In this document: positions 181-63,808 of the stretch, in pieces
How positions within the stretch are numbered: the stretch's first letter is position 1
How the letters are laid out: each line of letters begins with the position of its first letter
Source: Spirochaetaceae bacterium
GTDB taxonomy: Bacteria > Spirochaetota > Spirochaetia > DSM-27196 > PWMO01
Length of the DNA: 64,000 bases
Direction of reading: 5' to 3'
Assembly: GCA_007693325.1 (NCBI GenBank)
Contig: REDW01000066.1
Location: 1-64,000 of the forward strand
The notes under the pieces: generated by a model
Told to the model about the DNA's origin: nothing
What the model saw: only the letters and a program-made list of their open reading frames with translations
Database searches by the model: none
Made by a program: the position numbers and the translations under genes

Positions 181-1050
181 TTACGGAATCCAGTCTTCCA
201 CGATGTCGCGGTTCTCCGCTACCCATCGCTGAGCTGTTTCTTGCGGGTCAGCACCGGGTTCCTCGTTCCACATCAGGATTTCACCGAGCTGCTCCGGGGT
301 CCAGTAGAAGTTGTCGAGGAACTGGTACACTTCCGGCATATCCTCCGCCAGTCCTTCGCGAGCCACTGCCGCTACGTACTCTTCCTCGCCGAATACCAGC
401 TCGGGGTCCTCGAGATACTTCAGCTCGTAGGCCGCTTCCTTCCAGTGCGGAGTCCAGCCGGTTACCACAATCCACTCTTCATTTTCGATGGCCGAACCAA
501 GTGCCGCGGTCATGGCAGCGTCGCTGCCTTCAACCAGCGTCAGGTTGTCCAGACTGTAGACGTCGAGCGCCTCCTCGGTAGCCGCCATAAGGCCGGCGCC
601 GGGATCGATGCCGATGATCTCGCCACCAAAGCGGTCGGCGTATTCGTTGAGCTCGGCCACGGTGTCAATTTCGACGTAGGTCGGAACCATCAGGCCGATG
701 CGCGCGCCTTCGAGAATCGGGCTCAGCACTTCGATGTCATCTCTGGTCTGTTCCAGGTACTCGCCGTGGGTGGCGGGCAGCCATGCCGACAGCATACCGT
801 CGCCGTCACCGCTGGCCATACCCTGCCACATTGCGGCTCCGCTTACCGCGATGGAATTTACGTCGTAGCCCATCTCTTCGAGGACTTCCTGCGCAACGTA
901 GGTTGCCGCAATCTCGCCGGCCCACTCGACGTAGAGCAGGTTGACCTCTTCTACAACAACCGCTTCCGGTGCCGGGTCGCGTGTAACGACTACAGCGATA
1001 ATTACGATCACTACAATGACCGCGATAATGCCAACAAGTTTCTTGTTCAT
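181..1050 (-). CDS. opuAC: Glycine betaine ABC transporter substrate-binding protein (OpuAC/ProX-like)
   Basis: ORF with N-terminal hydrophobic signal (LVGIIAVIVVIVIIAVVV), OpuAC-like motifs (YVEWAGEIAATYVAQEVLEEMGYDV, WTPHW), adjacent to permease and ATPase. Confidence 0.85.
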   Translation of the reverse strand: MNKKLVGIIAVIVVIVIIAVVVTRDPAPEAVVVEEVNLLYVEWAGEIAATYVAQEVLEEMGYDVNSIAVSGAAMWQGMASGDGDGMLSAWLPATHGEYLEQTRDDIEVLSPILEGARIGLMVPTYVEIDTVAELNEYADRFGGEIIGIDPGAGLMAATEEALDVYSLDNLTLVEGSDAAMTAALGSAIENEEWIVVTGWTPHWKEAAYELKYLEDPELVFGEEEYVAAVAREGLAEDMPEVYQFLDNFYWTPEQLGEILMWNEEPGADPQETAQRWVAENRDIVEDWIP

Positions 1051-1126
1051 AATTTCCTCCTTACGAACGTGTCGTAAATGTTGTTCTATACTTCAGAGCC
1101 CGGGCTGCGATGCAGCCTCGGTCTCG

Positions 1127-1978
1127 TTATTCCTTGGCTTTGCCCTCACCTTTCTTCACCGTGATGTTCTGCGTAATGCGGTCCAGAATCATCGCGATGA
1201 TTACAATCGCCAGGCCGGCTTCAACGCCCTGGCCGGCGCGCAGGCGCTGGATCGCGCGCCATACTTCGCCACCGAGCCCGCCGGCACCGATCATGGCCGC
1301 GATAACCACCATCGACAGCGAAAGCATGATGGTCTGGTTGATTCCCGCCATGATGGTCGGCAGCGCCAGCGGCAGCTGCACTTTGACCAGCTTCTGCATG
1401 GTTGTAGTGCCAAACGCATCCGACGCCTCGATCATCTCGCGATCGATCTGACGGATTCCCAGTGACGTCAGACGGATCGACGGCGGAATCGAGAAGATTA
1501 CGGTGGCAAACGCCGCGGCCACCGGCCCCAGTCCAAAGAATGGAATAGCCGGTATCAGGTAGACAAACGCGGGCATGGTCTGCATCAGGTCCAGCACCGG
1601 CGTAACGGCACGATTGAACGGCAGCGAAAGGCCGGAGAAGATCCCCAGCGGTAACCCGATCAGAATCGAAATAAACGTTGCAACCAGCACCAGAGCGATG
1701 GTAGACAGCGTGGGCCCCCACAGGCCCAGGTTCCAGATGAACAACAGTCCCGCCACCGAAAAGATGGCGACCTTGCGGCTGGCAATCCACCACGCTATGG
1801 CCCCGATGATCAGCATCAACACAACCGGCGGCAGGGCACCGAGTCCGTTGACGATGCCGTCGATACCGAGACGTACAAAGCCGGCAAAAGCGCGCGTCAG
1901 AGGTGCGATTGCTGCTGTCAGCCAGTCGAGCAAACCGTCGACCCAGGCGGCCAGCGGCATTTTTGGTATCTCAAACAT
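1127..1978 (-). CDS. opuAB: Glycine betaine/proline ABC transporter permease
   Basis: Multiple TM segments and a ProW-like permease signature (QTMPAFVYLIPAIPFFGLG, GINQTIMLSLSMVVIAAMIGAGGLG). Confidence 0.9.
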   Translation of the reverse strand: MFEIPKMPLAAWVDGLLDWLTAAIAPLTRAFAGFVRLGIDGIVNGLGALPPVVLMLIIGAIAWWIASRKVAIFSVAGLLFIWNLGLWGPTLSTIALVLVATFISILIGLPLGIFSGLSLPFNRAVTPVLDLMQTMPAFVYLIPAIPFFGLGPVAAAFATVIFSIPPSIRLTSLGIRQIDREMIEASDAFGTTTMQKLVKVQLPLALPTIMAGINQTIMLSLSMVVIAAMIGAGGLGGEVWRAIQRLRAGQGVEAGLAIVIIAMILDRITQNITVKKGEGKAKE

Positions 1979-3188
1979 TGGCTTCTTCTCCTCGTTCGGA
2001 CAGCGCCGCGATCACCGATCCGCGCACGATCACTCCTTTGAGGATTCCGGCCTCATCAACAACGGCCACCGGATTACCGGAGACCATTGCAAAAATGGAT
2101 CGTACCGGCTGATCCATGGGTACCGTGGCGCACTCATCAGCAGAGGTGATGTGATCAATCCACTTGTCTCCGTGTCTGGCGGCGTCGGCTGCACGCTCGG
2201 CGGTCAGATGCCCCACCAGTTCCCAGTTGCTCGCGCGCACTACGAAAATGCCCGACATGCCGGCCTCTTTCATCTTGCGCAGCGCAGTGCGCGGCCCGTC
2301 TTTTACAAAGGCCACCGGACTGGGCTTCTTCATGACATCAGAAGCTACCAGAACCTTGGTGATATCGACGTTCTCAACAAACTTGGAGACGTAGTCGTCA
2401 GCGGGCCTGGTAAGAATCTCTTCCGGCGTACCAATCTGAACGATGGCACCATCCTTCATCAAAACTATGCGGTCACCCATTTTGAGCGCCTCATCGAGGT
2501 CGTGGGTGATGAACAGGATCGTCTTCTGCACCCGCTCTTCCAGCGCGATCAGCTCATCCTGCATATCGGTTCTGATCAGCGGGTCAAGAGCGCTGAACGC
2601 CTCGTCCATCAGCAGAATATCGGGATCCACCGCCAGCGCGCGCGCCAGGCCAACTCGCTGCTTCATGCCGCCGGAAAGGTTGGCGGGGTAATACTCACCC
2701 CAGCCTTTGAGCCCCACCTGCTGCAGCGCTTCCTCGCACTTTGGACGACGCTCTTCAGGATCAACGCCCTGTATTTCCAGGCCAAACTCTACGTTCTCCA
2801 GCACCGTCTTGTGCGGAAAGAGCGCAAAACTCTGGAAAACCATGCCAAACTTCTTGCGCCGTAGCTTGCGCAACCCGTCCTGGTCCAGTGTTGTCACGTC
2901 AATATCGTCTACTATGATCTTTCCCGCGGTGGGCTCCATCAGACGATTCACACAGCGGATCAGGGTTGACTTGCCGCTGCCGGAGAGTCCCATGACAACT
3001 ACGGTCTCACCTTCGTATACGTCAAAACTGGCATCGGCAACACCAACCGCCAGCTTGCTCTTCTTGAGGATCTCGTCTTTGGTCTTGCCGTTCTTCAGCA
3101 TCTCTACGGCGCGCTGCGGATTTCTGCCGAATACCTTATAGAGATTCTCAATCCGTATCTTGACCTTTCTTTCCTGCGTCTGCTCCAT
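1971..3188 (-). CDS. opuAA: Glycine betaine ABC transporter ATP-binding protein with C-terminal CBS domains
   Basis: Walker A GLSGSGKST, signature LSGGMKQRVGLARAL, Walker B ILLMDEAFSALDP, CBS-like C-terminus; overlaps the permease start. Confidence 0.93.
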   Translation of the reverse strand: MEQTQERKVKIRIENLYKVFGRNPQRAVEMLKNGKTKDEILKKSKLAVGVADASFDVYEGETVVVMGLSGSGKSTLIRCVNRLMEPTAGKIIVDDIDVTTLDQDGLRKLRRKKFGMVFQSFALFPHKTVLENVEFGLEIQGVDPEERRPKCEEALQQVGLKGWGEYYPANLSGGMKQRVGLARALAVDPDILLMDEAFSALDPLIRTDMQDELIALEERVQKTILFITHDLDEALKMGDRIVLMKDGAIVQIGTPEEILTRPADDYVSKFVENVDITKVLVASDVMKKPSPVAFVKDGPRTALRKMKEAGMSGIFVVRASNWELVGHLTAERAADAARHGDKWIDHITSADECATVPMDQPVRSIFAMVSGNPVAVVDEAGILKGVIVRGSVIAALSERGEEANV

Positions 3189-3527
3189 GCTGCTCCCGCT
3201 CTACGACACAACGTATGCCGGGGGAATACCCCCGTGGTAACTTCGCCACATTGACAATTCCATATACTTCCTTGTCAAACTACCGTTGGTGGGGGCGAAT
3301 AGTCAACGCCTTCCATAGAATTATATCGAATATTTACGCAGCTGTCCATCCACATAGTTGCAATTAGTTGCAATAGATCTGGTGATACACGCCCTAATGT
3401 ACCGTAACCCCATACCAGAAAGCCAATTATCCTACCCACTGCCCGCTCAGCACCCGATAATCGGTCAAGACAACGCCCTATCACCACCAATATGCACATA
3501 TCGCTTCCATTAATCAATAGAACACGT

Positions 3528-3546
3528 TATATTAGTATAGAATATA
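3528..3546. promoter_or_regulatory. Palindrome TATATT-agtatag-AATATA, candidate MarR operator
   Basis: Perfect 6-bp arms, about 30 nt upstream of the MarR-family ORF. Confidence 0.4.
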
Positions 3547-3576
3547 GTCTCGACGTCAACAAGGGTTGCAAGATCT

Positions 3577-4050
3577 ATGGAAACACAGGCAAGTCGTAGC
3601 GACGAGGTGCTGGCAACGCTGCGCCAAATCATTCGTGCTCTCGACCTTCATTCAAAACAGCTCTCCAAGACTGTTGGGCTGACCGGCCCGCAGCTGGTAG
3701 TCCTGCGCGAAATCGGCGCCACTGCCGATCTCTCGGTAGGCGAGATTGCCCGGCGTGTCAGCCTTAGTCAGGCAACCGTGACCAGCATCATAGACCGGCT
3801 CGAGAGCAAGCAGTACGCCCAGCGGCTGCGCAGCCGTGAAGATAAGCGGCGCGTGACGCTGCACGTGACCGCCCCTGGACGCCAGATCCTCGACGCAAAC
3901 CCCAGCTTTTTCCAGGAAGAGTTTGTACGTCGCTTTGAGCGCCTTGCCGATTGGGAAAAGACCCAGATCCTCTCATCGATCCAGCGCCTGTCTGCGATGC
4001 TGAACGCACCGGCACTGTCGAGCAGCGATGACCAGGAACCGCAGCTTTGA
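3577..4050 (+). CDS. MarR-family transcriptional regulator, divergent from opuA
   Basis: wHTH typical of MarR: LTGPQLVVLREIGATADLSVGEIARRVSLSQATVTSIIDRLESKQYAQRLRSREDKRRVTLHVT. Confidence 0.9.
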   Translation: METQASRSDEVLATLRQIIRALDLHSKQLSKTVGLTGPQLVVLREIGATADLSVGEIARRVSLSQATVTSIIDRLESKQYAQRLRSREDKRRVTLHVTAPGRQILDANPSFFQEEFVRRFERLADWEKTQILSSIQRLSAMLNAPALSSSDDQEPQL

Positions 4051-50842: not shown

Positions 50843-52135
50843 CTACTGCGTCTTGTTCACCTCAAAGATGCCAACCAGGCCGTGACCGCAGCCCTGCCCC
50901 TGCTGCAGTCGACTCACCAGGTAGCGCAGCGCGTAGCCCAGTTGCGGTTCGATCACGTTCTCCCGCGGCAACCCGGTGTTGAGCCAGCCCGCGCCTTCTA
51001 CCACCTGCCGCATGCGCTCCATCATCTGTCGCAGTTCAGTGGGATAGGTCGCGGGGACAGCGGGGAGTTCGGCTTTCAGCGTGCGGGCATCGGGGTCGTA
51101 GGCCTCCATCAGCGCCTGGCAATAGCTTACCAGCGTGTTCCAGCACATCTGCAGTCGCTCGAAGTAGCTGTTGATGAAATCAAAACCGGCTTTGGGAACG
51201 TAGTTCACGATCAGGGTACTGAGGTTGGTACGCACATTGGGCTCGTGCAGCGAGTTGACCGCCTCCCTCAGGGGCTGCGCGTAGGGATTGTATTCGGCGG
51301 TATCCATGTGCCGGCCGGTGAATACGGAACGGTCGAAGAACATCAACGGCTTGATCTCGACACCAGCTCGCTTGCCGGCTTGCGAGACAACCGCGTCGAT
51401 CTCCTGCCTGCTCATGAGCCTGAGCTGCAGATGCTGCAACTCGTTTTGTCTCTGCTCGCGCTCCTCCTTGTTGTAGATGTAGGAGACCACGTAATCCATG
51501 TTGCGGTTGTCGTTGAGATCGTTGGTCCACAGGGTCTGCCATTCGTAAGAGTAGCGGCCCAACCAGTCGCCGACGATCAGACAGTAGTCCTGGCAGGATC
51601 CGGCGATGTCGGCCAGCATTTGGACCAGCGTGTCGTCGTCGTTGTGATGCGAGAATGTGCCGTAGGAAGAGAAGTACAAGTCGTATGGCTTTTCGTCCTT
51701 CTTCAGCGAAAGGCCTTTGGTGAAGTCTCCCTGTTCAAAGCTGACCTTGGGATTGTGACTGTAGATTGAGCGGGCCTGCTGCAGCAGGTCAGCGGAAAGA
51801 TCCACGCCCTTATAGAGTCCGACTCTGTCCTCCGACAGCAGATCCACCTTGGACTGATGCAGTCCCGCCTCGCGATCGCGGATACCCATGAGCAATTCGT
51901 AACCGTCGGCGCTGCCGCAGCCCAGATCTATGATCCGCAGCCGCCTCATGGAGTGCTGACAGCGATCGAGCAGTCCGCGCACGTAGGGGTAGATGAAATG
52001 GCGCGTAATCTCGTCTTCCCAGTGTCGGCGAACGTTGTCGTACTTCCCTACCAGGCCGGACCGCTTGGCGTACAGGCCGCTTTTCACCGCCTCGCTGTAC
52101 GCTTCCATCTGTACGTCTTGCGACATTGAGCTCAT
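50843..52135 (-). CDS. Class I SAM-dependent methyltransferase
   Basis: LRIIDLGCGSADGYELL, GVDLSADLLQQARSIY, VSFEQGDFTKG; 4-nt overlap with the upstream gene. Confidence 0.8.
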   Translation of the reverse strand: MSSMSQDVQMEAYSEAVKSGLYAKRSGLVGKYDNVRRHWEDEITRHFIYPYVRGLLDRCQHSMRRLRIIDLGCGSADGYELLMGIRDREAGLHQSKVDLLSEDRVGLYKGVDLSADLLQQARSIYSHNPKVSFEQGDFTKGLSLKKDEKPYDLYFSSYGTFSHHNDDDTLVQMLADIAGSCQDYCLIVGDWLGRYSYEWQTLWTNDLNDNRNMDYVVSYIYNKEEREQRQNELQHLQLRLMSRQEIDAVVSQAGKRAGVEIKPLMFFDRSVFTGRHMDTAEYNPYAQPLREAVNSLHEPNVRTNLSTLIVNYVPKAGFDFINSYFERLQMCWNTLVSYCQALMEAYDPDARTLKAELPAVPATYPTELRQMMERMRQVVEGAGWLNTGLPRENVIEPQLGYALRYLVSRLQQGQGCGHGLVGIFEVNKTQ

Positions 52136-53643
52136 GATTCCTTCCTTGCGGTTTCCAGAGACTGCGGCAGTATCCCGGGTATCTCGGCGCTGATCCGGTC
52201 AAGCGTCTGCTTGGGCAGGGGCTTTCGTGCAACATCCATGATCTCCAGGTAACGGTGGTGCGCCGCCAACAGGGCCCCGCCCTGTTGGTCCTCCAGCGGA
52301 TAGCGTATGTAGACCTTCTCCCGCGTAGGCAGCGGAAGGTGGTAGATGTAGGTCTTGTGGTCGGTCTGCATGACCTCGCGTATTGTTTCCAGCAACTGCC
52401 GGCTCTTCTCCGGGGTGACCTGAGGCGGAGCAAGATTGTACTTGATCATGCCGATGTGCGCGTCATCGAGTACCGCCTGCTCGGGGCAGAAGATGTTGGT
52501 TCGCTCCAGAAGGCCAAATGCGTAGTGGACATACTGCGCACCGGTCCAGGGAATGTAGCCGTGAGTAAGCATCTTCTCTGCAGTAGCCTGGATGCCCGGC
52601 GTGCTGACATCCCCGGCACCCGCGGTGGAGTAACAGGGGAGCCGGTAGAAACGGGCCATCTGCGCCGCGTCGTGATGGTAGTGATTGAACTCGGGAGCGC
52701 CGTACATGTCGTTCAGGTTGTCCAGCCGGGTACGTACCGGAACACTGCCGTAGAGCACCGGCGCGCCGGGGGCCACAAGCTGGTTCAGCGCCACCCCGGC
52801 CAGGATTTCTGCGTTGATCTGGGAAATCATGCCAAACTCATCGAAGGGGGCGGTGGCGCCGCCCATGGGCGAGCTGGAGATCACCAGAGGCGCCCGATAG
52901 CGCGAGATGGCGATCACCTTGGCGGCGGTATCGTTGACCATCTGCAGCGGACTCTTGACCACGCAGGCAATGAACGACAGCACCGGATTCTCGCTGAACT
53001 CCCTCTCTCCGCCGGCGATGATGCGCCCCATCTGCATAACGTGGTCCAGGGCGTTGAGATCGGTCAGGCCCGCCTGCACGTGTTTGGTGATGTTATTCAG
53101 GCTGGCGAGAAACTTGTTGACGTCTTTGTTAGACGCCTTGACCTGCTCGTCCTGGATGTTGATGCAGCGTATGAAGGAGTCCAGGTTCTCCAGATTGTCC
53201 GCCAGGTGAGCGGCACGGCACAGGTAGTCAATAGAGCCGCTGCGGCGGTTGTATAGCGGTCGGTCGCCGTCAAAACCGATCTCCAGCCAGATGTTGCACT
53301 CCGAGCCGCTGGCAAATCTGACCCGTGGTTCAGCGGCGTCGAGAATCAGGCGGTTGTCGGGGTTGCGGGCTCCAAGCACGATACGCGAGGGCGCACTTGC
53401 CAGCGTCTTGTCCACCAGGGACGAGGGAATGCGCAGCCGCACGCAATCCTCGAGCTGCTCGACACGAGCTCCGGCGTTTCTGAATATGTCGGCTGCTTCG
53501 CGGTTGTAGCACAGAATGCCCGGATCTTCCAGAATTTCGCGCGAAATTCCATCTATCAACCCGATCTGCGCTTCATTCAGTCGCTGCTGCGGGGTGACCA
53601 GTACTCCTTCACGTTGCTTGGTTTCCATAGTGTTTGCCTCCAT
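52132..53643 (-). CDS. Trimethylamine methyltransferase (MttB) superfamily protein, non-pyrrolysine
   Basis: MttB-like fold motifs (RIPSSLVDKTLASAPSRIVLGARNP, GAPVLYGSVPVRTRLDNLNDMYGAPEF, GAGDVSTPGIQATAEKML); uninterrupted ORF. Confidence 0.8.
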   Translation of the reverse strand: MEANTMETKQREGVLVTPQQRLNEAQIGLIDGISREILEDPGILCYNREAADIFRNAGARVEQLEDCVRLRIPSSLVDKTLASAPSRIVLGARNPDNRLILDAAEPRVRFASGSECNIWLEIGFDGDRPLYNRRSGSIDYLCRAAHLADNLENLDSFIRCINIQDEQVKASNKDVNKFLASLNNITKHVQAGLTDLNALDHVMQMGRIIAGGEREFSENPVLSFIACVVKSPLQMVNDTAAKVIAISRYRAPLVISSSPMGGATAPFDEFGMISQINAEILAGVALNQLVAPGAPVLYGSVPVRTRLDNLNDMYGAPEFNHYHHDAAQMARFYRLPCYSTAGAGDVSTPGIQATAEKMLTHGYIPWTGAQYVHYAFGLLERTNIFCPEQAVLDDAHIGMIKYNLAPPQVTPEKSRQLLETIREVMQTDHKTYIYHLPLPTREKVYIRYPLEDQQGGALLAAHHRYLEIMDVARKPLPKQTLDRISAEIPGILPQSLETARKES

Positions 53644-53649
53644 TTGACT

Positions 53650-55104
53650 TCAGCTCGTTGGTTTCACAATCTCTGGAAACCGCGTCAGGATCCGCTGCCT
53701 GAGCCTGGGCTCCAGCAGAGAACCGCTCTCCTGCCGTCGAACCATCTCAACGAAATTCCTCGCGGCAGCGGCAGCCGGAATTCTGCCGGGCACCTCGCGC
53801 TTCTCGCGGCTGCTGATCAGCGGCGAGTAGAACTCGTTGCGCATGTGCTCGATGGTATGGTCTGCGTCCAGGTAGTGCGCCCCGGGGCCGCGTTCGATCA
53901 TCAGATCGGCAGCCAGGGTGTCGTCGTTGACCTCAATGCCGCGCAGCACACGCTGGCACATACCGAGTATCTCGTTGTCCATAACCAGCTTGTCGTAAGA
54001 CACGGTCAGGTCGGCCTCCATCAGCCCGGCGATATCGTGGATATAGTTGGCGCCACTCATCGCCACCAGCAGACTGGACATGGCGCTCTCCCAGGCGGCC
54101 TGGATGTCCAGCTCCACCGCGTCGCTGGTCCCGCCGGTGGAGTACAGCGGTATCTCAAAGTACTGGGCCAGCTGACTCACCGCGGCGTTGATCATGGCCC
54201 GCTCGATGGCGCCTCCCACATGATCCATATTCTGCAGGTTGGTAATGGAGCCCACACTGCCGCAGATTCCCGGGGCTCCTTTCCTGACGCTCTGCACCAG
54301 CGCGATGCCTCCAAGCGTTTCGGCAATATGGGTGAGAACGTTGCCGGCCAGGGTCACCGGAGAGGTGGTACCGCAGATGGGCTCGGTGGGGACTACTACG
54401 GGCAAGCCCTTTCCGGCCAGGTAACAGGTCATCTCGCCGTAGCGGTCGTCGATCTTGAAGGGGCTGATGATCAGGGTGATGAACGAGACAAAAGGCCGCC
54501 CGGCCAACTCACGCGCGCCGCCTGCCAACTCTTCGGCCATCTCCACCGTCTGCCGGCATCCTTGCAGAGAGTACAACCCTCCCATCACGTGCTTGCCGGT
54601 ATTGTCCAGTGAATGAAAGAACCGGTTTATGTCGATGTGATCGCGGGACTGTATCTCGTTGGGAAACACGTTAATTGTGAACAGATGGATGTTTTGCAGC
54701 TGCTCCACCATCCGGGCGTTGAGGATCACGTCCTCGATGGTCGACGGCCGTCGCTCACCGCTGTCCGGGTCCAGTACGTAGATCGCCGTACCTCCGGTAC
54801 CGTAGTGTACCCGATTCTTCTCCAGCACAACGTCGTAGCCCGGTTTGCGCGCGTGTAGTGTAATTGATGACGGATTGGATGCTACCGCGTCTTCAACCAG
54901 CGAACGGGGGAACCGAACCAGGCCGCTGGAGTCGTCCACCCGGGCACCCGCCTTACGCAACGCTTCGCGGCCAGTACGGGTATGCACCAGCATACCGCCC
55001 TTCTCCAGAACGCGTAGCGCTTCGTCGGCAATCTTCTTCACCTGCTCGCCGGTCAGCGGCCGGTACAGCTCGCTCTGAAACACCTCTGCATGTTGTCTGT
55101 TCAC
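53650..55104 (-). CDS. Trimethylamine methyltransferase (MttB) superfamily protein, non-pyrrolysine
   Basis: VLEKGGMLVHTRTGREALRKAGARVD, GAPGICGSVGSITNLQN, STGGTSDAVELDIQAAWESAMSSLL; uninterrupted ORF. Confidence 0.85.
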   Translation of the reverse strand: MNRQHAEVFQSELYRPLTGEQVKKIADEALRVLEKGGMLVHTRTGREALRKAGARVDDSSGLVRFPRSLVEDAVASNPSSITLHARKPGYDVVLEKNRVHYGTGGTAIYVLDPDSGERRPSTIEDVILNARMVEQLQNIHLFTINVFPNEIQSRDHIDINRFFHSLDNTGKHVMGGLYSLQGCRQTVEMAEELAGGARELAGRPFVSFITLIISPFKIDDRYGEMTCYLAGKGLPVVVPTEPICGTTSPVTLAGNVLTHIAETLGGIALVQSVRKGAPGICGSVGSITNLQNMDHVGGAIERAMINAAVSQLAQYFEIPLYSTGGTSDAVELDIQAAWESAMSSLLVAMSGANYIHDIAGLMEADLTVSYDKLVMDNEILGMCQRVLRGIEVNDDTLAADLMIERGPGAHYLDADHTIEHMRNEFYSPLISSREKREVPGRIPAAAAARNFVEMVRRQESGSLLEPRLRQRILTRFPEIVKPTS

Positions 55105-55153
55105 GTGTTACCCCTTTACTGCCGTCTCGATGATAGTCTACCGGATCCAGGTC

Positions 55154-56686
55154 TCACAGAGAGACCCACTGCCCCACCGTACTGACCGCCTTTCCGGTGC
55201 CGTATCGGTCGCAAAACAGCCGGAAGTAGTACAGCTCCTCCTTGCTGCGGACGAAGGGAAACTCGCGCCGCGCTTGTGCCAGTTCGCGGTCACTGAAGCT
55301 GTCCTCGAAGTACGAAGCCAGGCTATCCGCGGAGCCCGCCCCCTGGGAGAACTCCTGTTTGATCCGCCACGCCACAGCGTGCGGCAGCATAGCCTCGTAG
55401 GCCTTCCTGAAGATCCACTTTTCTATTTTGCTGTTACCGTCGGCTCGCTGCTTGTATTCCGCGGGAATATTCATCGCATAACGAAGCAGGTTCCCCGAGA
55501 TCAGCGGCGTGACTACCCGCATCGAGTTTGCCTGATTCATTCTATCCAGACGCAGTGCGGCGTTGTTATGCACAAAGCCGAGGCATTCCATCTGCCGTCT
55601 GAACAGTTCATCTCCGCCAAACTGTTTCAGATAAAGATAGCCGCAGAATACCTCGTCGCCGCCCTCGCCGGAGAGCAGTACCTCGAAGCCCTGTTGGCGG
55701 GCGTACCTGGTTACCAGAAAGTTGACCGCTGCGCTTCGTACCAGGGAGGGGTCGAAGGATTCAAGGTAGTGGACTACCTCGGGCAAGGCGGCCGCCAGAT
55801 CCTCGACCCCTATGATCAGCTCCTGGTGGTCGGTACCCAGATGTTGCGCCACGATGCGGGCATTGGCGATGTCCGTGCTTTCTCCTACCCCGATAGCAAA
55901 GGTTGTCAGCCGCGCGTCGGGACCACGCAGCTCCCGTAACCGCCACGCGGCCAGTGCGCAGATTACGCTGCTGTCCATGCCTCCACTGAGCAAGCCCGCG
56001 GTCGGCAGCGAGAAGTCCACCCTGCTGCACACGCTGTCAAAGATAAGCTCCCGTATCACCCGTACCATTGTGTCAACATCGTGTTCCATCGGCCCCGGGG
56101 GTGAGCTCGGCAACTCGGCGTAGCGGGTGGCGACTCCGGCTTCATCCATGAAGTGACCCGGGGGAAACTCGTAGAGCTCTTCGACAGCAGGCGCCAGACA
56201 CTTCAGCTCGGAAGTCAGGTAACGCACTCCGTCCTTCATGCCGTGGAACAGGGTCTTGATGCCCAGCAGGTCACGGGCGGCAAACCAGTGGTTGCCATCG
56301 TGAATTACAAAGGCGAAGATCGCGTCGTTCAGGTAGCTGAGCATACGTTGCCCGTGACGCCGGTACAGCGCCAGCAGTGTACGCTCCTCCAGAAAGGGTC
56401 CCGGCGGAACACCCTCGGCCACGGCCAGGCACCCTATGTTGCCTATCTGACCGTCATAACAGATGCACGCCTGCTTTCCGTCGGACAGCGGAACCCGGGA
56501 GCCCCGCGGAGCGTTGCCGGTGTCCGCCCGCAGGTAGTTCTGCCCCAGCACGGCCGTCGGCTGCTCGCGTACCCCTTCCAACCAGGGGCCGCGGTGTTTG
56601 ATAGACGCCAACATAGTTTCTACCTGCGTGCTGGATCGGCCATCGACCGAAGGAGATGGATACAATGCGGCTACAAACCCACTCAT
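55154..56686 (-). CDS. Asparagine synthetase-like amide ligase with degenerate glutaminase domain
   Basis: PP-loop LLSGGMDSSVICALA and GEGGDEVFCGYLY intact; N-terminus MSGFVAALYP has Ser where Cys is canonical; NGEIYN replaced by DGQIGN. Confidence 0.85.
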   Translation of the reverse strand: MSGFVAALYPSPSVDGRSSTQVETMLASIKHRGPWLEGVREQPTAVLGQNYLRADTGNAPRGSRVPLSDGKQACICYDGQIGNIGCLAVAEGVPPGPFLEERTLLALYRRHGQRMLSYLNDAIFAFVIHDGNHWFAARDLLGIKTLFHGMKDGVRYLTSELKCLAPAVEELYEFPPGHFMDEAGVATRYAELPSSPPGPMEHDVDTMVRVIRELIFDSVCSRVDFSLPTAGLLSGGMDSSVICALAAWRLRELRGPDARLTTFAIGVGESTDIANARIVAQHLGTDHQELIIGVEDLAAALPEVVHYLESFDPSLVRSAAVNFLVTRYARQQGFEVLLSGEGGDEVFCGYLYLKQFGGDELFRRQMECLGFVHNNAALRLDRMNQANSMRVVTPLISGNLLRYAMNIPAEYKQRADGNSKIEKWIFRKAYEAMLPHAVAWRIKQEFSQGAGSADSLASYFEDSFSDRELAQARREFPFVRSKEELYYFRLFCDRYGTGKAVSTVGQWVSL

Positions 56687-56708: not shown

Positions 56709-56736
56709 ATAGTAGGGTCTTATGTTTTCGTGTCAA
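56709..56736 (-). promoter_or_regulatory. Candidate sigma70 promoter for the AsnB-like/MttB operon
   Basis: TTGACA-N16-TACTAT on the minus strand, about 20 nt upstream of the ATG at 56686. Confidence 0.5.
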
Positions 56737-57385: not shown

Positions 57386-57549
57386 CTCGCGACCCGTTCG
57401 ACGTTCGTGCCGCGGCCGATGTCAAGCAAGGACACTGCCGGTTGCAGGCGAAACTGCTCGAGTAACAACACGCCCGCGCGTCCGCCAACCCAAACCGTGC
57501 CCGGGTGATCCCGGCGCGGGGTACCTGCGTGGGTCTCCCGCGAAATCAT

Positions 57550-57755
57550 TCAAGATGCTACAATCCCCCGCTGCCGAGAAACGGACCTCACCCATCATCG
57601 CTCACTGCACTGCGGTCACGCTGGGCCCCATACGCCGGGGTAACGCTACTCATAGCGGCGTGGTGGATCGCTGCGGCCGCGGTGGGGCGCGAAATCCTGC
57701 TTCCATCACCCCCGACGGTTGCGCGCAGCCTGCTGCAGATCGTGCAGTCATGGGA
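57550..57755 (+). pseudogene. Truncated ABC transporter permease (N-terminal fragment)
   Basis: APYAGVTLLIAAWWIAAAAVGREILLPSPPTVARSLLQIVQS resembles the start of an SsuC/TauC-type permease, then loses similarity. Confidence 0.6.
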
Positions 57756-58295
57756 TAGTTGTCGCCACCGAAGTGTTCCCTGTATCCGGCGCCCAGGTCA
57801 ATTGCCACCCGCAACCGGGGATTGGCAGTCAGCACTCGCGTCACAAACGGCTCCGGCAGCACCGCAAGCCGAGCCCTGCCGGCAATCAGCTGCTGGGCCA
57901 GCTCGGTCTGATCCGCCGAGTAGCGCAGATCGAGGTCACGTTGCGGATCTATCCCGTACCGTCGGGCGAGCGCCTGTATACAGTATGTCGGGTGTGGTGC
58001 CGCGCGCCAGCGTGTGCACAGTGTGCCCCCGCAGATCATCCCAGCCGAGATCCTCATCGGCCACAACGTAGAGTACTCCCCCGCCGCTAACCGCCAGCAG
58101 CTGAAGATCGACGCCACGATTGAAGAGGTTCGCCGCGAGGTTGGTCGGCAAAGCGGCGATATCAACCTCTCCGGCCAGGATCTGCGACACAAGCAGGTCC
58201 GGAGTTCCGTACACGTTCAAGCGGGGCTCGATGGAAGGCCCCAGCCGATCCGGCTGCCGCGAGCAAACCTGCGCCCGCGAGCAACAGGACAGAGA
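57750..58295 (-). pseudogene. Frameshifted, truncated ABC transporter substrate-binding protein
   Basis: Three pieces in different frames: signal peptide RSLFISVLLLAGAGLLAAAGSA; LNVYGTPDLLVSQILAGEVDIAALPTNLAANLFNRG; RYGIDPQRDLDLRYSADQTELAQQLIAGRARLAVLPEPFVTRVL. Confidence 0.75.
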
Positions 58296-58403: not shown

Positions 58404-60212
58404 TTATGCTTCTGCCGTTGCCGCTGCCGCGCCTGCTGCCGCCGCGCGGGCAACCTCGCCGTACACGGTGTGCAACAGCTCGTGCGATCTGTGACCTAGC
58501 GGCTCCTCAAGAAACTCCTTGTACAGCGCCTGCACATAGGGGTTCTCGTGTGACTTGCGCCGCTCCTTCCCTTCATCCTCACGATAAATCGCCGCGATGC
58601 GCGCCTGCCGCACCCTGTCGGTGGTCATTCTGGGCTGACCGCCACCGCCAATGCAGCCGCCCGGGCAGGTCATGATCTCCACGAAATGGTATTCCTTCTC
58701 ACCACGCTTGATCGCCTCGATCAGCCGGCGGGCGTTCCGCAGGCCGTGGGCTACCGCTACCTTGAGCTCGACTCCCTCCAGGAAACTCCAGTCGGGCGTC
58801 ACATCCTTCAAGGCGATCGCGGCTTCCTTCACTCCTTCGAGACCGGCGACCGTCTTGATGTGCAGATTCTCCACCGGAACTTCACGACCGGTAACCAGCT
58901 CGTAGGCGGTGCGTAGCGCCGCTTCCATGACACCACCGGTGTTGGCAAAGATATCTGCGGCGCCGGTCGAAATGCCGAACGGAGCATCCATCTCTTCATC
59001 CGGGAGCGCCGTGAACTCGATCCCGATGGTCTTGATCATCAGCCCCAGCTCCCGGGTTGTGAGTACGTAGTCAACATCCTGATAGCCGGACGCCCGCATC
59101 TCCGGACGCGCGGCCTCGAACTTCTTGGCCGTACACGGCATGACGGAAACCACCACCATGTCCGCCGGGTCAACACCGATCCGTTCAGCGTAGTAGGTCT
59201 TGGCCAGCGCACCGAACATCTGCTGGGGCGATTTGCACGACGAGATGTTGGGGAGAATCTCGGGGAAGAAGCTCTCAGCGAAGCTGATCCAACCCGGGGA
59301 ACAGCTGGTGAACATGGGAAGATGCGCCTTCGTGCGGTCTCCCATCGCCGCCTTCAGCCGCGTCAACAGCTCGGTTCCCTCTTCTACGATCGTAAGGTCG
59401 GCGGTGAAGTTGGTATCAAAGACGTCGTCGAAGCCCAGACGCCGAAGCGCCGCGGTCATCTTGCCGGTGACGAGCGTTCCCGGCGGATAGCCAAAACACT
59501 CTCCAAGAGCGGCACGGATCGCCGGAGCCGTCTGCACCACGACCTGCTTCTGCGGGTCCGCCAGCGCGGACCATACAGCGTTTACGTGACTTCGCTCGTT
59601 TATGGCTCCCACCGGACAAACCGCTGCGCACTGGCCGCACTGGACACACGGCACTTCTTCAAGATTGCGCCAGAACGCCGGCCCGATAAACGTATCGAAC
59701 CCTCGGCCCTGCGGAAACAGCGCGCCGACGCCCTGCACATCGTTGCACACAGCCACGCAGCGGCGACACTTGATGCACTTTCCGGTGTCTCGATAGATCG
59801 CAGGTGTGGTCTCATCGTAGACGCGTGTGGGCTGCTCCCCCTCGTACGGATTCATGTGGATTCCCAGCGTTCCAGCCACTTCGCGGAGTTCGCAGTCTTC
59901 AACCCGGTCACAAAGCGTACACTCGCCCTGATGCTCACTGAGCAAGAGCTCTACGACAGTGCTGCGCGCTTCGCGAACCTTCGGCGTGTTGGTATGCACC
60001 CGCATGCCGTCGGCCGCCGGAGTCGAACAGGCGGCCTGGAGGCGCGGAATTCCTTCGATTTCCACCATACAGACGCGACACGCACCAAGCGGATCTCTGC
60101 CTTCCATGTGACAAAGCGTTGGAATTCGGTACCCCGCCTGAAGCGCTGCATCGAGCACGGTGCGGCCTGCCGGGACTTCTACGGTGCGGTTGTTAATGAT
60201 GAGCTTCGGCAT
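58404..60212 (-). CDS. hndD: [FeFe]-hydrogenase catalytic subunit, NAD(P)-linked group A (HndD-like)
   Basis: N-terminal 2Fe-2S and 4Fe-4S clusters; H-cluster motifs FTSCSPGWISFAE, MPCTAKKFE, MTCPGGCIGGGGQP. Confidence 0.95.
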   Translation of the reverse strand: MPKLIINNRTVEVPAGRTVLDAALQAGYRIPTLCHMEGRDPLGACRVCMVEIEGIPRLQAACSTPAADGMRVHTNTPKVREARSTVVELLLSEHQGECTLCDRVEDCELREVAGTLGIHMNPYEGEQPTRVYDETTPAIYRDTGKCIKCRRCVAVCNDVQGVGALFPQGRGFDTFIGPAFWRNLEEVPCVQCGQCAAVCPVGAINERSHVNAVWSALADPQKQVVVQTAPAIRAALGECFGYPPGTLVTGKMTAALRRLGFDDVFDTNFTADLTIVEEGTELLTRLKAAMGDRTKAHLPMFTSCSPGWISFAESFFPEILPNISSCKSPQQMFGALAKTYYAERIGVDPADMVVVSVMPCTAKKFEAARPEMRASGYQDVDYVLTTRELGLMIKTIGIEFTALPDEEMDAPFGISTGAADIFANTGGVMEAALRTAYELVTGREVPVENLHIKTVAGLEGVKEAAIALKDVTPDWSFLEGVELKVAVAHGLRNARRLIEAIKRGEKEYHFVEIMTCPGGCIGGGGQPRMTTDRVRQARIAAIYREDEGKERRKSHENPYVQALYKEFLEEPLGHRSHELLHTVYGEVARAAAAGAAAATAEA

Positions 60213-63200
60213 ATAGTATCTCCTTGCGCACTGGGGTCTTGCCGTAGTCACAGCGCAGGCAGCGCTTGCATTGTCGCAGTGCCACGCTCTCGTTCCATGG
60301 GAGCTCTACTTCTTCAAAACTCCACTTTCGCCGTTCCACCGGAACGGTAGGCATCGGCTCCCTGGGAAACGGAACCGGATCGGCATCGGGATCGTAGTCG
60401 GTGTCCAGAGCATTCTCCATGCGCCAGAACGCGTGGTCTTCACCGGTCAGCATGAAGTCGATGCCGACCGCGGCACGCTCCCCGGCGGCAATTGCCCCTA
60501 CTACCGACGCCGGCCCGCTGGCGACATCGCCACCGGAAAACAGCCACGGCTGCGAGGTCTGACCTGTTAATTGATCGGTCTTGATGAAGCCGTTGGACGC
60601 GAGCTCTACCTCGAGTTCACCGAGAACCGACTCAACATCCAGCCGCTGCCCGATCGCCACGATGACCTGGTCGGCCTCGATGGTAAACGGTTGCCCTCCT
60701 CCTTCCGTGGCACGACGGCGACCGCTGCGATCAAAATCGCCCAGCGCCATCTCGGAGCACTTGAGCGCCCGAACAGCAGCATTCTCTCCCTTGATGACCT
60801 CGATCGGTTGGGTCAGACAGCGTAGCGTCACACCTTCGTGCAGCGCCTCGGCGATCTCCTCAGCGTAGGCGGGCATCTGTTCCTGGCTCCGCCGATAGAC
60901 CACCGTCACCTCAGCTGCGCCGAGCCTCAGCGCGGTACGCGCGGCGTCAATCGCCGCGTTTCCTCCGCCCACGACAACAACTTTCTTGCCGACCGGAACG
61001 GACCCGCGAATGTTGTACTCGCGCAAGAACTCGTTGGCTTCCACCACTCCGGCAGCATCCTCGCCTTCGATTGAGAGCGTCATGCCGGAGGGGGCCCCAA
61101 CAGCCAGAAAGATCGCCTCGTAGCCTTGATCGCGAAGGTCATTCAGCGTGAAATCGCGGCCGAGCGCCATATTGGTGTTGATCTTCACGCCCAGCTGCTC
61201 AATCATGCGGATCTCGCGCGCGAGTGTCTCTCGCGGCAAGCGGTAGGCGGGTATAGTTTGAACCAGCATTCCGCCAGGACGCTGCTCAGCTTCAAACACT
61301 ACCGGCCGGTATCCAAGCCGCGCCAGGAAGTAGCCGCAGGAGAGTCCAGCCGGTCCGCCTCCGATAATCGCGATTCGGCGTCTTTCGTTGTCCTCGTTCT
61401 CGATGACTCGTGGATGCTGGATCACGATCTCCTGGTCGACCATGAACCGCTTGATACCGCGAATCGCCACCGAATCGTCGAGAGAGGCGCGGCGACACTT
61501 ATCCTCACAGGTATGAAAACAGACCCGTGCGCACACAGCCGCGAACGGGTTGCGCTCCCGGTGCAGCCTCAGAGCCTCGGCATACCGCTCCTCACCCACC
61601 AGCGACACGAAGCCCGGAACATCGACACCGGCCGGGCAGGCGCTCTGACACGGAGCTCGAACGAGCGACGGGCACACACCGGCCTCGCAGTGGCGCTCGC
61701 GAATGTGGGCCTCATACTCGTGACGGAAGTACCGGATAGTCGACAGCACCGGATTCGGTGCGCTCTGTCCAAGGCCGCAGAGCGATGTGTCCTTGATCTG
61801 CCGGCCGAGGGTTTCCAGCGTTTCGATGTCACCTTCAACTCCTGCACCGGCACAGATCCGTTCCAGGATCTCGAGCATTCGCTTGGTCCCAACCCGGCAC
61901 GGAACGCACTTGCCGCACGACTCCTCCTGCACGAACTCCAGAAAGAAGCGCGCCACGTCTACCATACAGGTATCGTCGTCCATGACAATCAGCCCACCGG
62001 AGCCCATGATTGCTCCCAGTTTGGTCACAGACTCGTAGTCAAGCGGGACACTGAGATGCTCGCGCGGTATGCAACCGCCGGAAGGGCCGCCAATCTGGGC
62101 CGCTTTGAAGCTCTTGCCTCCGGTGATGCCTCCACCGATGTCGTAGATCAGTTCGCCCAGAGGTGTTCCCATCGGTACTTCAACCAGTCCGGAGTTCTTT
62201 ACCGCCCCGGCAAGCGCAAAAACCTTCGTGCCGCGGCTCTGAGCGGTTCCCATGGCCGCAAACCACTCGGGGCCGTTTGCCATGATTGCCGGTATGTTGG
62301 CGTAGGTCTCCACGTTGTTGAGCAGAGTCGGCGATTGCCACAGACCCTTCTCGACGGGAAACGGCGGCCGCGGCCTGGGCTCTCCGCGACGGCCCTCGAT
62401 CGAGGCCATCAGCGCGGTCTCCTCACCGCACACGAACGCCCCTGATCCCATTCGAATACCCAAATTAAAGGCTATGCCGGTGCCCATCATCGAGACACCC
62501 AGTATCCCCGCGCTGCGCGCTGCGTCTATCGCCTTTGTCAGACGCGACACCGCGAGCGGGTACTCGGCCCGAACGTAGATGTATCCCTGCGTAGCACCGA
62601 TGGTATAGGCGGCAATCGCCATGCCCTCAATCAGGCCGTGCGGGTCACCCTCCAGAATGCTGCGATCCATGAACGCGCCGGGATCGCCTTCGTCGGCGTT
62701 GCACACCACGTACTTGGGCTTCCCTTCGGCATCTCGTGCAAACTCCCATTTCTTCCAGGTCGGAAAGCCGGCGCCACCCCGCCCCCGCAGTCCGGAAACC
62801 CGCAACATCTCGATTACTTCATCAGCGCTGTTGGATTTCAGTACCGATTCCAGCGCGTCATACCCACCGGTCGCGCGGTACTCGTTGATATCCACGGGGT
62901 CGATACGGCCACAGTTACGCAGTACAACCTTGGTCTGGTGCCGAAAAAATGAGAGATCCGCCAGCTTTGGCACCGGCTTGCCGTCTGTTACGCTGGGACG
63001 GCAGAGGCGTTCTACTACCCTTCCTTCGACGAGATGCTCGCGCACGATCTCGTCCACGTCGTCTCCGCTTACCGCCTCATAGAAAACACCGTCAGGCTGT
63101 ATCGTCAAGACGGGTCCCTGGGCACACGGTCCCAGGCAGCCGGCAGTCCGCACCCGAACCGAACCGTTTGCCCCCGCGAGCGCGGTACGGAATCGTTCTA

Positions 63201-63273
63201 CCAGGTCGAGCGCCCCGGAAGCAACACAGCCACCTCCACCGCAGATGATCACTTCACGAGTTGCGCTACTCAT
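60193..63273 (-). CDS. NuoF/HydB-like flavoprotein fused to a C-terminal GltD/NfnB-like FAD-NAD(P) oxidoreductase
   Basis: Thioredoxin-like 2Fe-2S, NuoF (NADEGDPGAFMDRSILEGDPH, SCGKCVPCRVGTKRML), then PCQSACPAGVDVPGF, IIGGGPAGLSCGYFLA, VVGGGNAAIDAARTALRLGAAEVTVVYRRS. Confidence 0.93.
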   Translation of the reverse strand: MSSATREVIICGGGGCVASGALDLVERFRTALAGANGSVRVRTAGCLGPCAQGPVLTIQPDGVFYEAVSGDDVDEIVREHLVEGRVVERLCRPSVTDGKPVPKLADLSFFRHQTKVVLRNCGRIDPVDINEYRATGGYDALESVLKSNSADEVIEMLRVSGLRGRGGAGFPTWKKWEFARDAEGKPKYVVCNADEGDPGAFMDRSILEGDPHGLIEGMAIAAYTIGATQGYIYVRAEYPLAVSRLTKAIDAARSAGILGVSMMGTGIAFNLGIRMGSGAFVCGEETALMASIEGRRGEPRPRPPFPVEKGLWQSPTLLNNVETYANIPAIMANGPEWFAAMGTAQSRGTKVFALAGAVKNSGLVEVPMGTPLGELIYDIGGGITGGKSFKAAQIGGPSGGCIPREHLSVPLDYESVTKLGAIMGSGGLIVMDDDTCMVDVARFFLEFVQEESCGKCVPCRVGTKRMLEILERICAGAGVEGDIETLETLGRQIKDTSLCGLGQSAPNPVLSTIRYFRHEYEAHIRERHCEAGVCPSLVRAPCQSACPAGVDVPGFVSLVGEERYAEALRLHRERNPFAAVCARVCFHTCEDKCRRASLDDSVAIRGIKRFMVDQEIVIQHPRVIENEDNERRRIAIIGGGPAGLSCGYFLARLGYRPVVFEAEQRPGGMLVQTIPAYRLPRETLAREIRMIEQLGVKINTNMALGRDFTLNDLRDQGYEAIFLAVGAPSGMTLSIEGEDAAGVVEANEFLREYNIRGSVPVGKKVVVVGGGNAAIDAARTALRLGAAEVTVVYRRSQEQMPAYAEEIAEALHEGVTLRCLTQPIEVIKGENAAVRALKCSEMALGDFDRSGRRRATEGGGQPFTIEADQVIVAIGQRLDVESVLGELEVELASNGFIKTDQLTGQTSQPWLFSGGDVASGPASVVGAIAAGERAAVGIDFMLTGEDHAFWRMENALDTDYDPDADPVPFPREPMPTVPVERRKWSFEEVELPWNESVALRQCKRCLRCDYGKTPVRKEILYAEAHH

Positions 63274-63808
63274 CGGGGTCCTCCTCGCTCGTTGGCTTGT
63301 GATACGGCGCCAGCAGTTCGCGCAACCGGGCCGGCTTAACCCGCTGATGCACGTCATCGTCCACCATGACCACGGGCGCAAGCCCGCAGGCGCCGTAACA
63401 GCGGCCGACTTCAAGCGAGAATTGCTGGTCGGCCGTAGTGTCGCCTACGTCAATTCCCAGCTCGTTCTTCAGGTCCGACAGAACCTGTTTCCCGTTGCGA
63501 ACGTAACAGGCAGTTCCAAGGCAGACTCGCACCGTGTGCTTTCCACGGGGAACAGTGGTGAAATAGGAATAGAAGGTAACCACCCCGGTCACCTCGCTGA
63601 ACGGAATCCCCATCCGGCTGGCGATGCAGTAGAGGACCGGCTGAGATAGATAGCCAAAGAGCTGTTGAACCTCCTGAAGAACGGGTATCAACGCCCCGCT
63701 CTCGTTGCGGTGAGCGGCTATAACCGCATCAATCTGTTCTTGCTGCTCGATTGGTGGTGGTTGAATGGCAGAGGTCGCGGCTGTTGAAACATCGGTCTCG
63801 GAACTCAT
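63266..63808 (-). CDS. hndA: NuoE/HndA-like 2Fe-2S subunit
   Basis: VLQEVQQLFGYLSQPVLYCIASRMGIPFSEVTGVVTFYSYFTTVPRGKHTVRVCLGTACYVRNG..CYGACGLAPVVMVDDDVH. Confidence 0.92.
   Translation of the reverse strand: MSSETDVSTAATSAIQPPPIEQQEQIDAVIAAHRNESGALIPVLQEVQQLFGYLSQPVLYCIASRMGIPFSEVTGVVTFYSYFTTVPRGKHTVRVCLGTACYVRNGKQVLSDLKNELGIDVGDTTADQQFSLEVGRCYGACGLAPVVMVDDDVHQRVKPARLRELLAPYHKPTSEEDPDE

Follow-up and report, generated by a model that had tools for sequence, protein, structure and literature searches.

A probably laterally spread cassette of two non-pyrrolysine MttB proteins, an AsnB-like ligase and a SAM-dependent methyltransferase, possibly serving an osmolyte pathway

What kind of chemistry would bring two MttB-superfamily proteins, an amide ligase and a SAM-dependent methyltransferase together in one transcript? 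The question is raised by four genes packed on the minus strand of the window (the whole 64,000-nucleotide stretch analysed here), which comes from a Spirochaetales-like MAG of 3.47 Mb and 97.5% completeness. In 5′ to 3′ order they encode an AsnB-like ligase of 510 amino acids (55154..56686; Pfam Asn_synthase, 196 bits), MttB1, a non-pyrrolysine MttB-superfamily methyltransferase of 484 amino acids with a GTG start (53650..55104), a second such protein of 503 amino acids, MttB2 (52132..53643), and MT, a SAM-dependent class I methyltransferase of 430 amino acids (50843..52135), with gaps of 49 nt and 6 nt between the first three genes and a 4-nt overlap between the last two. An earlier sequence-only reading had described just this arrangement; its coordinates, strand, lengths and spacing all agree with ours, and its families were correctly named, with Pfam giving MTTB twice, Asn_synthase and a class I methyltransferase. 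The promoter it proposed stands in part. The sigma-70-like TTGACA-N16-TACTAT site 5′ of the AsnB-like gene (56709..56736, minus strand), assigned by consensus match only, is present and scores 10 of 12 consensus positions, but such sites are not rare (four observed in the region against 2.3 expected in shuffled sequence), and this one is kept only in the closest relative, L013, being gone in L014. Contamination of the MAG was rejected as a source of the cassette, as its GC content equals that of the window (0.598) and a CBS-domain neighbour gene is the same in L008.

From a genome-neighbourhood survey, it is clear that the linkage of the four genes is beyond chance, since their order is identical in all three Spirochaetales carriers (G000, G012 and G028) and the MttB1-MttB2-MT block recurs in Spirochaetota, Planctomycetota and Latescibacterota. 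MT, which has a conserved C-terminal extension and serves as the marker gene of the cassette, was present in Spirochaetales, Latescibacterota, Phycisphaerae, Brocadiia and Pirellulaceae/other Planctomycetes in a scan of named genomes. Orthologues of MT were found in 3 of 46 genomes of the order and 3 of 64 Latescibacterota-side genomes, and those of MttB2 in 5 of 392 Planctomycetota-side genomes and 1 of 392 sampled spirochaetes. Such patchy occurrence, together with the 62–73% identity of the block in other phyla, suggests that the cassette has spread by lateral transfer; in the gene trees, the phyla radiate in a star-like pattern. Judging by codes in the record names, which we take to mean Cock soda lake sediment (CSSed) and Black Sea (BS), most carriers come from the sediment of soda lakes or from the Black Sea. 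Carriage by phages or plasmids was rejected, since viral contigs searched with two peptide patterns held no relative of the cassette and the only plasmid relatives, in Streptomyces, are 25–27% identical.

The three block genes are contiguous or almost so in most carriers. In L015 and L016, a gene for a DUF362 ferredoxin-type protein is inserted in the block; the insert lies between MttB1 and MttB2, has two 4Fe-4S motifs (L015 362-1600; L016 7154-8452) and occurs in two phyla. In one genome, MttB2-MT and OpuC-AsnB-MttB1 are on different contigs (L022 and L070). A scrambled contig, L077 (2600-3904), joins a piece of MttB1 to MT and MT to an ABC ATPase, through either recombination or misassembly.

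Both MttB proteins are indeed non-pyrrolysine members of their family, as had been read from the sequence: neither has an in-frame stop or UAG, and the pyrrolysine column holds Thr/Ala. They score 310 and 187.6 bits with Pfam MTTB (PF06253, cut-off 25), and 372.9 and 241 bits with the trimethylamine methyltransferase model TIGR02369, below its cut-off of 525. The two are 32% identical to each other; among solved structures, MttB1 is closest to those of MtgB (2qne and 9yce, at about 32% identity), and for MttB2 pyrrolysine MttB gives the slightly higher score. To our knowledge, non-pyrrolysine MttB proteins are mostly without a known substrate. For MtgB, docking predicted glycine-betaine contacts at Y94, N199, R309 and H345 (PMC6855144). 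Across the cassettes, the corresponding columns of MttB1 and MttB2 hold T/S, L/C, Y and D/Y, so that all four of these docking-predicted contacts are replaced and the substrate is probably one other than glycine betaine; an ordinary glycine betaine demethylase is disfavoured by the same pocket residues. The Tyr and Asp found at the carboxylate-side columns of MttB1 hint, furthermore, at a substrate that may have no free carboxylate.

The ligase retains an intact synthetase PP-loop (SGGMDSS), and all ligases compared have an ATP pyrophosphatase loop of the form SGGMDSS or SGGLDSS. Its glutaminase site, which the sequence-only reading did not mention, is dead: Cys1 is replaced by Ser (MSGF) and the NGE site is changed to DGQ, which makes an ammonia- or amine-dependent enzyme likely. 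The N-terminus is MSGF in the window, L013 and L014, and MSGL or VSGI in other relatives; Ala takes the Cys1 position in L017 and in the L070 copy that adjoins MttB1, and a second AsnB-type copy in L070 retains Cys. Thus the ligase resembles asparagine synthetase B in its fold and ATP pyrophosphatase loop, but differs from it in lacking the glutaminase nucleophile and in falling short of the NCBIfam AsnB equivalog cut-offs. Cys-less relatives of AsnB, named here as general background, include beta-lactam synthetase and CarA.

Among 14 carriers, an AsnB-type ligase was found in eight, a GCS2-like one in four, neither in two and both in none. The thresholds were unequal (1e-40 for AsnB-type, 1e-10 for GCS2-like); the AsnB-type call for G213 comes from an incomplete match close to where its contig ends, a weak hit to ordinary AsnB in G049 was left out of the count, and the contigs of the two carriers with neither ligase begin inside MttB1. 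The hypergeometric p for this exclusivity, with kinship among carriers ignored, is 0.015, rising to 0.021 when one near-duplicate is dropped. The GCS2 gene, an assignment that is itself weak (18.7 bits, cut-off 21), is preceded by a proA-like gene in each of the four genomes that have it. That AsnB-type and proA-GCS2 genes never occur together in the 14 carriers suggests that the ligase step may be replaceable.

As for MT, its C-terminal domain matched no sensible Pfam family at E 1, and a PDB sequence search gave chance matches only. Its AlphaFold model has a pLDDT of 71, and at that quality the match to glycine-sarcosine N-methyltransferase (Z 15.8) is tied with NTMT1, METTL6 and others, the tied matches including N-terminal protein, glycine-sarcosine and phosphoethanolamine N-methyltransferases. 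The modelled fold looks N-methyltransferase-like, with matches tied across many methyltransferases. A full-length relative (25% identity) on Streptomyces plasmids adjoins genes for a 2OG-Fe(II) oxygenase-like protein and a LysE exporter, a neighbourhood compatible with an amino-acid-like substrate for MT. The plasmid mini-cluster (L114 11917-14756; L115 11989-14830) consists of the MT relative, a hypothetical protein, the 2OG-Fe oxygenase-like protein, LysE and a HAD phosphatase.

OpuC betaine-type ABC transporter genes, also passed over in the earlier reading, adjoin the cassette in most non-spirochaete carriers, and MscS is near it in some; the spirochaete copies have no adjoining transporter. 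The divergent locus L059 has, in a single run, MarR, OpuCA, OpuCB, OpuCC, AsnB-like, MttB2, a corrinoid protein, MT, a second corrinoid protein, RACo, a 222-aa protein and MttB1. Within the window itself, positions 181-4050 hold an OpuA-type ABC transporter for glycine betaine and, after it, a divergent MarR gene, about 47 kb from the cassette; this MarR gene is 45% identical to that of L059.

None of the papers searched describes the cassette, and no match was found among described methylotrophy operons, as had been thought. The MtgB-MtgC-MtgA system of Desulfitobacterium hafniense and Methanolobus vulcani likewise uses the MttB superfamily without pyrrolysine, and its corrinoid protein and RACo have counterparts in L059; the cassette departs from it in its two MttBs, its added SAM methyltransferase and AsnB-like ligase, its replaced betaine contacts and, in the window, the lack of linked corrinoid genes. 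MtgBCD of Ruegeria pomeroyi resembles the cassette in that its MttB genes are not linked to the corrinoid gene and in tying osmolyte demethylation to C1 metabolism, but has no cassette with a ligase, a SAM methyltransferase or a second conserved MttB (PMC12478193). The Eubacterium limosum choline pathway (MthB/MthC/MthA/MthK) also couples an MttB enzyme to an ATP-using substrate modifier, which is a kinase in place of an amide ligase; it has no SAM methyltransferase and, unlike the window, keeps its corrinoid protein inside the gene cluster (PMC12155760).

Do the MttB proteins work with corrinoid proteins at all? The window's reading frames, as read, encode neither a corrinoid protein nor a RACo activator, and from this absence the sequence-only reading had suggested MttB folds recruited to new, corrinoid-independent chemistry. 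The absence holds for the window but not for the genome: besides MetH, it encodes two RACo proteins and another three B12-binding_2 proteins. In L029, a corrinoid protein has a pterin-binding methyltransferase and RACo as neighbours, and in L030 a different one is found with DUF1638 and RACo. B12-binding_2 matches, mostly stand-alone ORFs of about 210–290 aa and some of MetH size, occur in 9 of 10 carrier MAGs tested. Corrinoid genes were seen in the cassette in L059 only, which speaks for corrinoid-free MttBs; the trans partners, the cis partners in L059 and the likewise unlinked MtgB and MtgC loci of Ruegeria pomeroyi (PMC12478193) speak against them. Corrinoid-free chemistry is thus unsupported, and we give it very little credence; with corrinoid proteins and RACo in the source genome, B12-binding_2 matches in the carriers and the L059 cluster, methyl transfer that depends on corrinoid is the reading that needs the fewest assumptions. 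One candidate cognate gene, type C118, was rejected as carrier-specific, as besides all three carriers about 15 non-carriers among the 46 order genomes have it; the corrinoid-protein tree did not resolve its branching.

Taken together, we tentatively favour, at somewhat short of even confidence, a laterally spread osmolyte or quaternary-amine cassette. MttB1 and MttB2 would demethylate one N-methylated substrate, or two related ones, other than glycine betaine itself, with RACo-maintained corrinoid proteins from elsewhere in the genome as methyl acceptors. The precursor would be acidic and amino-acid-like: the ligase would use ammonia or an amine to amidate its side-chain carboxylate, and its nitrogen would be methylated by MT; the cassette would so make and import a methylated amino-acid-type compatible solute, to be demethylated and recycled when salinity falls. 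The three-phylum block, the OpuC/MscS neighbours, the L059 run, the corrinoid proteins and RACo of the source genome, the B12-binding_2 matches in carriers, the replaced betaine contacts, the loss of Cys1, the exclusive ligase types and the tie of the MT model with N-methyltransferases argue for this. Against it, SAM methylation and demethylation in one pathway need a regulation that is not visible, the spirochaete copies have no adjoining transporter, the MT fold matches are tied on a pLDDT 71 model, ProA would reduce rather than amidate gamma-glutamyl phosphate, and direct corrinoid linkage comes from L059 as the one locus. Of the earlier proposal, remodelling of an N-methylated amide or quaternary amine remains plausible from the amide ligase and N-methyltransferase; its corrinoid-free MttB part is unsupported.

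A purely catabolic role, possible if doubtful, would have the cell grow on an imported quaternary amine, whose methyl groups MttB1/MttB2 would pass to corrinoid and tetrahydrofolate; the ligase and MT would pre-modify substrate or product, in the manner of the choline kinase MthK, which acts ahead of MthB in Eubacterium limosum. It fits the importer and corrinoid genes of L059, the corrinoid protein beside a pterin-binding methyltransferase and RACo in the source genome, and the phosphocholine precedent (PMC12155760). However, L059 has no methyl-corrinoid:THF methyltransferase gene, a SAM-consuming methyltransferase is ill-suited to simple catabolism, and the MscS, MarR and OpuC neighbours resemble osmoadaptation. 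The missing THF methyltransferase, the pair of MttBs and the two corrinoid proteins flanking MT in L059 would instead suit transmethylation, in which MttB1 demethylates an imported betaine and MttB2, reversed, methylates a ligase-made acceptor through methyl-corrinoid, sparing SAM. This we consider very unlikely: the corrinoid genes are in one locus only, and we know of no MttB family member that runs in the methylating direction.

An elaboration of the osmolyte cassette, which we regard as unlikely, is that it both makes and recycles a previously undescribed methylated amino-acid-amide compatible solute, the MttBs exchanging methyls between this solute and imported betaines via corrinoid proteins; if true, both the osmolyte and this use of the MttB superfamily would be new. 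Were the product a solute, haloalkaline carbon and nitrogen cycling would gain a new osmolyte. A cassette shared across phyla, in which MT is dedicated, the ligase seemingly replaceable and the transporter of betaine type, limits where MttB substrates need to be sought, and its compactness makes it an expressible test case for non-pyrrolysine MttB proteins.

Elsewhere in the window, broken reading frames at 57505-58220 resemble remnants of an ABC permease and a substrate-binding gene; the permease frame is open in L008 (6702-7244). Two large genes at 58404-63414 resemble NADH-dependent [FeFe]-hydrogenase subunits, one of them fused to NuoF- and GltD-like parts.
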